DNA from: Candidatus Tectimicrobiota bacterium | Lineage (GTDB): Bacteria > JACPSX01 | Reading direction: 5' to 3' | Length of the DNA stretch: 10,452 nt | Assembly: GCA_016193065.1 (NCBI GenBank) | Contig: JACPSX010000027.1 | Coordinates: forward strand, 1-10,452 | In this document: positions 5,270 to 8,204 of the stretch, one piece after another | Layout of the letters: every line of letters begins with the position of its first letter | Position numbering within the stretch: position 1 is the first letter of the stretch | Translations under genes and position numbers: made by a program | The notes under the pieces: model-generated | The model's input: the letters and a program-made list of their open reading frames with translations, nothing else | Databases searched by the model: none | What the model was told of the DNA's origin: nothing

Positions 5270-6202
5270 TTAGAAGGGGGAGCGGGAGTTGTAGTCCGGT
5301 TCCCGGTCGAAGTGGTGTTCGGTGCTCAGAAATCGAATGGTGCCGGACTTGGAGCGCATGACGATGGAATTCGTCGTGGCGCCTCCGCGGACGAAGCGGA
5401 CCCCCTTGAGGAGATCTCCATCCGTGACTCCCGTGGCGGCAAACATCACGAATTCCGTGGGCACCAGGTCGGAGAGGGTTAAGATGCGCTCCGGGTCTAA
5501 CTCCTTTAGCTTTTCTTTTTCCTCTTGGGATTGAGGAAGTAATCGTCCCTGGAAGTCTCCCCCCATGCATTTCAGGCCAGCCGCGGTGATGACGGACTTG
5601 CTGGCGTCCCCGATGCCCATGACCACATCGATTCCCCCTTCCCGGTGGCAAGCAGCCAGAGAAGTGGACACCTCACCATCTCCGATCAATTTAACGCGAG
5701 CGCCACTCTTGCGCACCGCCTCAATTAAGGCCCGGTGACGCGGCCGGTCCAGGATGGCCACGATCAGGTCTTCGCGCTGGCACTGCAAGGCAGAGGCAAT
5801 GTTGTCCAGGTTCTCGGCGGGGGTGAGGTTGAGGTCGATTGTCCCTCGGGCCTTGGGCCCAACCACAATTTTCTCCATGAGCATCATCGGCAAGGGGACA
5901 AGCCCTCCCGGGGGCGCGATGGCGATGACCGAAATCGAATTGGGTCCGCCTGTGGCGCAGATGTTCGTACCGTCCAGGGGGTCGAGCGCCAGATCCACCT
6001 GATCCGGGTTGGGTGTGCCGACGGTTTCGCCGCTGTACAGGGTGGAAGTCTCCGTGGCTTCCCCCATGCCGATGACGACCCTGCCTTCCAGGGCGGCTGC
6101 CTGCTCCGCCAGGCGCTCGTCTCCCCGGCCCATAAAGCGCGCGGCGGCCAGAGCTGCGGCCTCAGTGACCCGGACAAATTCCATGGCTAGATTTCTATCC
6201 AT
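5270..6202 (-). CDS. glpX: Class II fructose-1,6-bisphosphatase family protein (GlpX-like), divergent active site
   Basis: GlpX enzymes are metal-dependent cytosolic phosphatases that hydrolyse fructose 1,6-bisphosphate (sometimes also sedoheptulose bisphosphate) in gluconeogenesis. The 310-residue product matches the family end to end: MDRNLAMEFVRVTEAAALAAARFMGRGD at the start, VDLALDPLDGTN (Asp74, Asp77, Thr79), ILDRPRH, MGGDFQGRLLP, and the family signature ATGVTDGDLLKGVRF followed by MRSKSGTIRF. Two departures are visible. About 11 residues of the second helix (normally DxAAVxAMR...) are missing after residue 36, and residues that align with E. coli metal ligands are changed: Asp33 to Glu33, Glu57 (GEGE) to Met46 (GMGE), Glu213 (GIGGAPEG) to Lys202 (GIGDASKS). 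Activity is therefore uncertain although the frame is intact and the substrate-side motifs remain. The ATG at 6202 follows AGGAC about 7 nt upstream. It is a single-gene unit facing the glycan operon. Confidence 0.88.
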   Translation of the reverse strand: MDRNLAMEFVRVTEAAALAAARFMGRGDERLAEQAAALEGRVVIGMGEATETSTLYSGETVGTPNPDQVDLALDPLDGTNICATGGPNSISVIAIAPPGGLVPLPMMLMEKIVVGPKARGTIDLNLTPAENLDNIASALQCQREDLIVAILDRPRHRALIEAVRKSGARVKLIGDGEVSTSLAACHREGGIDVVMGIGDASKSVITAAGLKCMGGDFQGRLLPQSQEEKEKLKELDPERILTLSDLVPTEFVMFAATGVTDGDLLKGVRFVRGGATTNSIVMRSKSGTIRFLSTEHHFDREPDYNSRSPF

Positions 6203-6270: not shown

Positions 6271-6372
6271 AAAAGGAGAGGGATACTGAAAGGGAAGCGG
6301 CTCCCATGTCGAAGGCGCGCAGAACCCTGCATTGCTGGTGGTCACGCACTGTAGAAGAGAGATAACCGGCAG

Positions 6373-6402
6373 AAATAAAAAAAGGCCCCCACCTTGGGGG
6401 CC
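6373..6402 (-). terminator. Intrinsic terminator on the - strand
   Basis: Read on the - strand, GGCCCCCA pairs with TGGGGGCC (6402-6395 with 6391-6384) around a 3-base loop and is followed by TTTTTTTATTT (6383-6373). It lies 14 nt after the stop of the 63-codon ORF at 6417 and about 100 bases upstream of the candidate glpX promoter, so it ends a separate - strand transcript. Confidence 0.85.
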
Positions 6403-6650
6403 AGGCAGAGTTCCCGTTAGGCCCGTGTATGTCGGACAAGGTGCCAGAGATTCCACAGGAACCTGTACGCAGGGCGCTCGGAAGTCAACTGGAAGAGCCC
6501 CCGAAAGGTCCTTACCACCGAGAAGCGCCGAGCGCGGAACGACTTCGATTTCTGCAGAACCTGACCCAGCACGATGGAATTGCTGCCGGTTAAATCATAG
6601 CACCGCATTTTCCATAACCTCCCATATACAAAAGGAGATTTCCAAAATCT
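6376..6650 (-). ncRNA. Candidate structured small transcript (unclassified), alternative or addition to the 63-aa ORF
   Basis: A start near 6650 and the terminator at 6402-6373 predict a transcript of about 275 nt. By eye it can form: AGATTT-TGG-AAATCT at the very 5' end (6650-6636); GGTGCT (6604-6599) with GGCACC (6445-6440); ATTCCA (6580-6575) with TGGAAT (6455-6450); GGCGCT-tct-CGG (6529-6518) with CCGAGCGCC (6481-6473); and AAGGACC (6513-6507) with GGCTCTT (6499-6493). All four long-range helices nest, giving a rod-like fold. I could not match it to 6S RNA, SRP RNA, tmRNA or RNase P RNA by their conserved motifs. Short helices of 6 bp can arise by chance, so this rests mainly on the promoter and terminator. 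Confidence 0.35.
6417..6608 (-). CDS. Small basic protein of 63 residues, unknown; alternatively a structured small RNA
   Basis: I do not recognise this protein. It begins MRCYDLTGSNSIVLGQVL, is rich in Arg/Lys through the middle (SKSFRARRFSVVRTFRG) and ends with an aromatic, basic tail (YRFLWNLWHLVRHTRA); there is no signal peptide or clear membrane helix. Support for a real gene comes from context: an ATG at 6608 with GGGAGG (6623-6618) 9 nt upstream, a consensus -35 and a plausible -10 at 6684-6657, a 5' hairpin, and an intrinsic terminator just after the stop. The third codon positions are mostly G or C, as in the neighbours. Against it: no family match, and the same transcript can form nested helices (see the RNA entry), so the ORF may be incidental. 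Nothing else is on this strand nearby. Confidence 0.4.
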   Translation of the reverse strand: MRCYDLTGSNSIVLGQVLQKSKSFRARRFSVVRTFRGLFQLTSERPAYRFLWNLWHLVRHTRA

Positions 6651-6656
6651 ATCTTC

Positions 6657-6684
6657 AAATTAATGCGTTTCCAGAGAATGTCAA
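6657..6684 (-). promoter_or_regulatory. Sigma70-type promoter for the - strand small unit
   Basis: TTGACA (6684-6679), a perfect -35 hexamer, is followed after 16 nt by TAATTT (6662-6657). Transcription would begin near 6650, exactly at the base of the 5' hairpin AGATTT/AAATCT. Confidence 0.55.
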
Positions 6685-6780: not shown

Positions 6781-6814
6781 GAGAGGCAGCCACCACGCTT
6801 TGTGGCTGCCTCTC
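6781..6814. promoter_or_regulatory. Perfect 13-bp hairpin in the pheA leader region
   Basis: GAGAGGCAGCCAC (6781-6793) pairs without mismatch with GTGGCTGCCTCTC (6802-6814) around an 8-base loop. There is no T-run on either side, so it is not a standard intrinsic terminator. It ends 3 nt before the GGAGG ribosome site at 6818, so it could set the 5' end of, or affect translation of, the mini-ORF that follows. Confidence 0.5.
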
Positions 6815-6824
6815 TGTGGAGGTG

Positions 6825-6869
6825 ATGATGGAAGGATGTGTAGGGACTTGCATCCGCTCGGTTCTTTAA
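6825..6869 (+). CDS. Possible 14-residue leader peptide, unknown
   Basis: GGAGGTGAT (6818-6826), nearly the full anti-16S complement, stands just before two adjacent in-frame ATG codons (6825 and 6828); the second has the better 5-nt spacing from GGAGG. The frame MMEGCVGTCIRSVL ends at TAA 6867. It has two Cys but no Phe, Tyr or Trp run, so it is not a classical phenylalanine attenuation peptide. It ends inside the left arm of the 6850-6912 stem, an arrangement in which a translating ribosome would disturb that stem. Support is the ribosome site alone. Confidence 0.25.
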   Translation: MMEGCVGTCIRSVL

Positions 6870-6977: not shown

Positions 6978-7012
6978 TGACAAGGTGTCAGAATTACCGA
7001 CAGGGGGTGTCG
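6978..7012. promoter_or_regulatory. Two tandem dyads with TGTC half-sites upstream of pheA
   Basis: TGACA-AGG-TGTCA (6978-6990) is followed 7 bases later by CGACA-GGGGG-TGTCG (6998-7012). Four GACA/TGTC half-sites in 35 bases suggest a protein-binding region or two small hairpins. The site lies about 120 bases before the pheA start. It does not match the TyrR or TrpR consensus as I know them. Confidence 0.35.
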
Positions 7013-7130: not shown

Positions 7131-8204
7131 TTGGACAATCTCTCCAATTTACGAAAGAAGATCGATGCGCTCGATGACGAGATATTGCGGCTTCTCAACG
7201 AGCGTGCCCGCTTAGTCCTGGAAATTGGCCGGGAAAAAGCCCGCTCATCGAGCGGGCCCCATGTTCCCGAGCGCGAACGGGAAATTCTGGAGCGTCTTAC
7301 AGCGCAAAACCCCGGACCGTTCCCCAATGACGGCATCCGCACTCTGTACCGGGAAATCTTTGCCGTAAGTCTGGCTCTTGAAAGCCCGAAAACGGTGGCC
7401 TACCTGGGGCCGGAAGCCACCTTTGCTCATCAAGCCTGCCAGCGCTATTTTGGATCTGGTGCCAGCCTCCTCCCGTTGGAGACAATTCCGGCCATCTTCC
7501 GGGAAGTGGAGGCGGAGAGAGCCACCTGCGGTCTGGTTCCTGTGGAGAACTCGATCGAGGGGATGGTGAGCCACACGCTGGATCTCTTTATGGAATTCGA
7601 CCTGAAGATCTGTGGAGAGGTCCTCCTCAAGATTACCCACTACCTGGTTTCTCGGGCAAAAACACCGGGGCAGGTGAGAAAGATCTATTCCCATCCCCAG
7701 GCGCTGGCCCAATGCCGGCAGTGGATCGAGCACAATTTCCCGCGCGCGGAACTCGCTGAGGTAACAAGCACCGCCCGGGCTGCAGAGCGGGCGCGAGAGG
7801 AACAGGGCGCGGCCGCGATAGCCAGCATCCTTGCGGCTGATCTGTACGGCCTGTCCGTGCTGGCCCGGGGCATCGAAGACAACCCTCACAACTACACCCG
7901 CTTCCTGGTGATCGGCAGGCAGTCCCCAGCTCCCAGCGGGACCGATAAAACCTCCATCTTGTTTTCCGTCCGGGATAAGCCGGGAGCCCTGTTTGAGGCC
8001 CTTGGGCCCTTTGCGGAGCAGAAAGTCAACCTGACCAAGATTGAGTCCAGACCCTCCAAGAAAAAGCCCTGGGAGTACGTCTTTTTCGTTGATATGGAAG
8101 GGCACCTGGAGGACAAAGCGGTTCGCCAGGCCATCGCTGCGTTAAGAGAGGACGCAGTGGATCTGCGCGTGCTGGGCTCCTACCCCCGGGGGGAAATGGC
8201 ATGA
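7131..8204 (+). CDS. pheA: Bifunctional chorismate mutase / prephenate dehydratase (P-protein)
   Basis: Cytosolic enzyme that rearranges chorismate to prephenate and then decarboxylates and dehydrates it to phenylpyruvate. At 357 residues it is standard for P-proteins. Residues 1-85 are an AroQ-type chorismate mutase helix bundle (LRKKIDALDDEILRLLNERA, then GREKA and PEREREILERL). Residues 89-260 are prephenate dehydratase: VAYLGPEATF from 89, VPVENSIEGMV, and the catalytic Thr-Arg-Phe motif at 256-258. Residues 273-350 are an ACT domain with PGAL (284-287) and ESRPS (305-309), which binds phenylalanine for feedback inhibition in this family. The start is a TTG at 7131, supported by AAGGTGG at 7115-7121; no in-frame ATG or GTG lies close upstream. 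Its stop overlaps the hisC start (ATGA), implying coupled translation. A terminator-like hairpin on the opposite strand lies inside the mutase part. Confidence 0.95.
   Translation: MDNLSNLRKKIDALDDEILRLLNERARLVLEIGREKARSSSGPHVPEREREILERLTAQNPGPFPNDGIRTLYREIFAVSLALESPKTVAYLGPEATFAHQACQRYFGSGASLLPLETIPAIFREVEAERATCGLVPVENSIEGMVSHTLDLFMEFDLKICGEVLLKITHYLVSRAKTPGQVRKIYSHPQALAQCRQWIEHNFPRAELAEVTSTARAAERAREEQGAAAIASILAADLYGLSVLARGIEDNPHNYTRFLVIGRQSPAPSGTDKTSILFSVRDKPGALFEALGPFAEQKVNLTKIESRPSKKKPWEYVFFVDMEGHLEDKAVRQAIAALREDAVDLRVLGSYPRGEMA
7234..7257 (-). terminator. Antisense terminator-like hairpin within pheA
   Basis: On the - strand, GCCCGCTC (7257-7250) pairs perfectly with GAGCGGGC (7246-7239) across a 3-base loop, and is followed at once by TTTTTCCC (7238 down). 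This has all parts of an intrinsic terminator for transcripts running antisense to pheA. On the sense strand it encodes KARSSSGP in the mutase domain, so a coincidence of coding sequence is possible. Confidence 0.45.

Follow-up and report, generated by a model that had tools for sequence, protein, structure and literature searches.

Orphan genes for small proteins have been detected by ribosome profiling in the intergenic regions of E. coli O157:H7 Sakai (PMC5597208). The 63-codon frame examined here (ORF63), which lies in a window of 10,452 nucleotides (the whole stretch of DNA that was analysed), resembles those genes in being a short frame of no known family in a long intergenic region. The Sakai genes (PMC5597208) rest on transcriptome and ribosome-profiling data, whereas ORF63 is known from sequence alone. 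A second point of comparison is provided by intergenic small RNA (sRNA) genes with an intrinsic terminator. Like these, the ORF63 unit is small and separate, and ends in a G+C-rich hairpin and a T tract. Unlike these, its predicted transcript has no significant fold or Rfam match, and a frame with a Shine-Dalgarno (SD) sequence fills most of it.

Genomic context and ends of the unit

ORF63 is contained in an intergenic region of 928 bp between a glpX-type gene on the - strand and a divergent pheA-type gene on the + strand (Table 1). The frame is oriented towards glpX, and the terminator separates the two. No further gene was detected by gene calling on the - strand upstream within the intergenic region. 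The source genome, a fragmented assembly of 294 contigs with a completeness of 86%, is the sole representative of its phylum in the compared genome set; the closest PheA protein was 56% identical.

Table 1. Coordinates of the features of the ORF63 locus and its neighbours in the window
Feature	Position	Strand	Details
glpX-type fructose-1,6-bisphosphatase gene	5270..6202	-	PF03320, E 1.3e-111; next gene downstream of the terminator, same strand as ORF63
Inverted-repeat arm 1, 14 nt (13/14)	6363..6376		just past the terminator, abuts the T tract
Intrinsic terminator stem-loop	6384..6402	-	8 pairs; T tract 6383-6377
63-codon ATG frame (ORF63), predicted basic protein MRCYDLTGSNSIVLGQVLQKSKSFRARRFSVVRTFRGLFQLTSERPAYRFLWNLWHLVRHTRA	6417..6608	-	codon score 0.038; pI 11.8
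Inverted-repeat arm 2	6579..6592		inside the start of ORF63
8-pair hairpin, 3' arm over the SD sequence	6616..6640	-	-8.7 kcal/mol
SD-like GGGAGG	6618..6623	-	9 nt 5' of the ATG; seen in the sequence
TTGACA, possible -35 lacking a good -10	6679..6684	-	seen in the sequence
pheA-type gene (chorismate mutase, prephenate dehydratase, ACT)	7131..8204	+	divergent

The strong terminator described in the initial annotation is present. It consists of GGCCCCCAAGGTGGGGGCC followed by TTTTTTT, and starts 14 nt past the ORF63 stop. When 773 kb of this genome was scanned for hairpins with a stem of 7 or more pairs, 6 or more of them G-C, and a following stretch with T at 6 or more of 8 positions, 11 were returned in all. 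One was located inside a gene (on the opposite strand). Four followed a gene of their own strand at a distance of no more than 150 nt, and two followed one at a greater distance. The others were three at contig ends and the terminator at 6402-6384; going upstream from the latter, the first called gene is the divergent pheA. Contig-end cases aside, this was the sole intergenic terminator that did not follow a called gene on its own strand. Terminators of this sample that lie immediately behind genes are 23-66 nt from the stop codon, compared with 14 nt for ORF63. The terminator is more than a chance occurrence, being rare and behaving like a genuine gene end; a - strand transcript ending at 6402-6384 is therefore likely, and the terminator is the best evidence for the unit. 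A plasmid match to it (Deinococcus, 36 nt) was a mere hairpin resemblance.

The 5' end was less clear. The initial annotation had combined a perfect TTGACA with a plausible -10 in a self-contained - strand unit. The TTGACA stood, but the best second hexamers 15-19 nt from it matched TATAAT at 3 of 6 positions, and zero sigma-70-like sites were reported for the unit by the promoter scan. The proposal of a self-contained unit is thus well supported at the 3' end, with a strong terminator and no other - strand gene upstream, but poorly at the 5' end, where no good -10 was found. A weaker pair (TGGAAA-16-TAGATT) has only 8 matches of 12, and an RNA starting from it would begin near the 5' hairpin. 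This hairpin, which had been noticed earlier, was recovered by computation with arms at 6640-6633 and 6623-6616, and its stability was equalled by 19 of 200 shuffles.

Coding evidence for the 63-codon frame

The GGGAGG and the 63-codon frame were found as first described, and the predicted product contains 10 Arg, 2 Lys, 1 Asp and 1 Glu. A survey of 73 kb of intergenic DNA of the same genome covered frames that have 50-100 codons and are preceded by a good SD. As 18 such frames were present, against 15.6 in shuffled DNA, an SD plus a frame alone is no evidence of coding. The codon score of ORF63 lies between the mean of real genes (0.165) and that of shuffled SD frames (-0.12); it was attained by 3.2% of shuffled intergenic SD frames (approximately 0.5 expected in the sample), and 13% of real 63-codon gene fragments score below it. 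The antisense frame at 6429-6593 has the same codon score. ORF63 ranked eighth by codon score among the surveyed SD frames, the first seven of which look like real genes, some of them resembling L35, cold-shock and YHS proteins. Its score was above that of an intergenic frame of 58 residues that has CxxC pairs and looks real. This SD-bearing frame of 58 codons (L092, 10949-12125) has two CxxC-type pairs, zinc-ribbon-like, and has the appearance of a real small gene. The G+C content by codon position was 52/48/73% in ORF63 and 67/45/71% in the genes of the genome.

On the codon score and the stop 14 nt before the terminator, the odds that ORF63 is coding are somewhat above even. Codon usage, the SD and the spacing between stop and terminator lend moderate support to the view that a small protein is encoded. 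AlphaFold2, run on the single sequence, predicted two helices with low confidence (pLDDT 60.5, pTM 0.25), a poor model that allows no further interpretation of the product.

No match to the 63-residue product was detected in Pfam, NCBIfam, PHROGs or PDB; the initial annotation had likewise recognised no family for it. The search for relatives returned nothing beyond chance-level matches in the 385 other genomes of the wider relatives set (386 including its own), nor in plasmids, phages and viral contigs; in GTDB contigs there was one pattern-selected match only, at chance level. This absence of relatives has limited weight because none of the compared genomes is related to the source genome more closely than at the level of domain. 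A Planctomycetota match (L004, KSFRARRF..., 56% over 27 residues) was attributed to chance, with an E of 0.0026 within the genome that contains it, in a scan of approximately 85,000 genomes preselected by an 8-residue pattern. The same applies to the matches in G063 (with two internal stops) and G035, with E of 0.003-0.005 per genome, and to two DNA matches in the own genome, in a transporter-permease-like frame (C98) and in another long coding frame (C255).

Alternative readings of the locus

The initial annotation had also suggested a structured RNA with four nested helices. The transcript might be a small non-coding RNA of approximately 250 nt that ends at the terminator, carries the frame by accident and acts by base pairing with targets. 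The strong terminator and the frequency with which SD frames of this length arise by chance are both consistent with this, as is a possible rod-like fold, a 141-nt sub-domain (6580-6440) with a z of -2.0 that was picked after the fact. The folding of the whole transcript, however, was no better than that of shuffles: the energy is -99.8 kcal/mol for the 275-nt transcript versus -93.3 +/- 5.3 for shuffles (z -1.21), and -79.9 versus -78.0 kcal/mol once the terminator is removed (z -0.39). No Rfam family reached the gathering threshold, and the matches obtained with a permissive threshold were all at chance level, which leaves a 6S-like or other known RNA unsupported. Folding energy and Rfam thus give little support to a structured RNA, and codon usage leans towards coding. 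We consider a non-coding RNA unlikely.

Next in order comes the view that the frame is a chance occurrence among remnants in a decaying intergenic region, with the terminator left from a lost gene. This would fit the length of the region, in which no recognisable protein was found in the frames searched, the occurrence of SD frames at the shuffled rate and the empty promoter scan. Decay would be expected to erode both the perfect 8-pair stem and the T7 tract, but these are intact, and the ORF63 codon score falls within the top 3% of shuffled frames. This is likewise unlikely, and rated as marginally less probable than a non-coding RNA. A decayed known gene was rejected, as none of seven stop-to-stop translations of the region contained a Pfam family above the cut-off.

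The terminator could instead be an attenuator that precedes the glpX start by approximately 180 nt, with the 63-codon frame or its RNA governing read-through into this next gene downstream on the same strand. The 14-nt inverted repeat between the early frame and the segment past the terminator would then belong to the switch. Its arms are 202 nt apart and straddle the terminator, and a repeat this good is rarer than shuffles predict (approximately 0.04 expected per shuffle). As an attenuator is expected to recur in glpX leaders, other glpX upstream regions were compared. A glpX leader is nevertheless very unlikely, since a comparable terminator was present within 600 nt upstream of none of 29 other glpX genes (weak ones in two), the repeat and the terminator stem do not overlap, and between the terminator and glpX there is a candidate promoter for glpX itself (TTGCAG, 17 nt, extended -10 TGCTATTTT, 6264-6236, read by eye). 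Both arms have TA at their outer ends, but a mobile element was dismissed, as no second copy of the region or of both arms was found; both arms occur at a single place in the genome at zero mismatch.

Other features were observed in the same intergenic region. A perfect 13-pair hairpin (GAGAGGCAGCCAC/GTGGCTGCCTCTC, 8-nt loop, no T tract, no Rfam match) is located upstream of pheA at 6781-6814 (+). Directly after it, in the long pheA leader, a near-ideal SD (GGAGGTGAT) precedes a 14-codon mini frame, MMEGCVGTCIRSVL (6818-6869, +), which is possibly a leader peptide, although it lacks Phe. ORF63 itself is on the wrong strand to be a Phe/Tyr leader peptide for pheA. A direct repeat, GACAAGGTGYCAGA (13/14), occurs at 6435-6448 and 6979-6992, 544 nt apart.

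Proposed gene and its meaning

The best explanation is that ORF63 is, with a probability of just over one half, a small monocistronic gene, specific to this lineage, that encodes a small protein and ends in a terminator of its own. Such a gene is ordinary in kind, and cannot be proven from sequence by itself. From the features at 6373-6684 we infer its transcription, translation, function and regulation. RNA polymerase would start on the - strand somewhere upstream of approximately 6640, and would produce an mRNA of approximately 250-270 nt that stops at the terminator. Translation from the ATG at 6608 would yield a strongly basic protein of 63 residues. Because of its charge and its aromatic, possibly amphipathic C-terminal half, the most likely mode of action of this protein would be binding to nucleic acid or to an anionic membrane surface. 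The hairpin over the SD sequence may keep translation low. That the gene is self-contained, that its small basic protein forms a new family private to this poorly sampled phylum and that its translation is gated by the SD hairpin is, taken together, a tentative and rather doubtful proposition.

ORF63 by itself has no bearing on a larger open question. If translated, it would be one more orphan small protein of a type easily missed by a gene caller, in a phylum with only one genome among those compared. A strong terminator with no preceding gene on the same strand would then be usable as a guide to small genes that have been missed.
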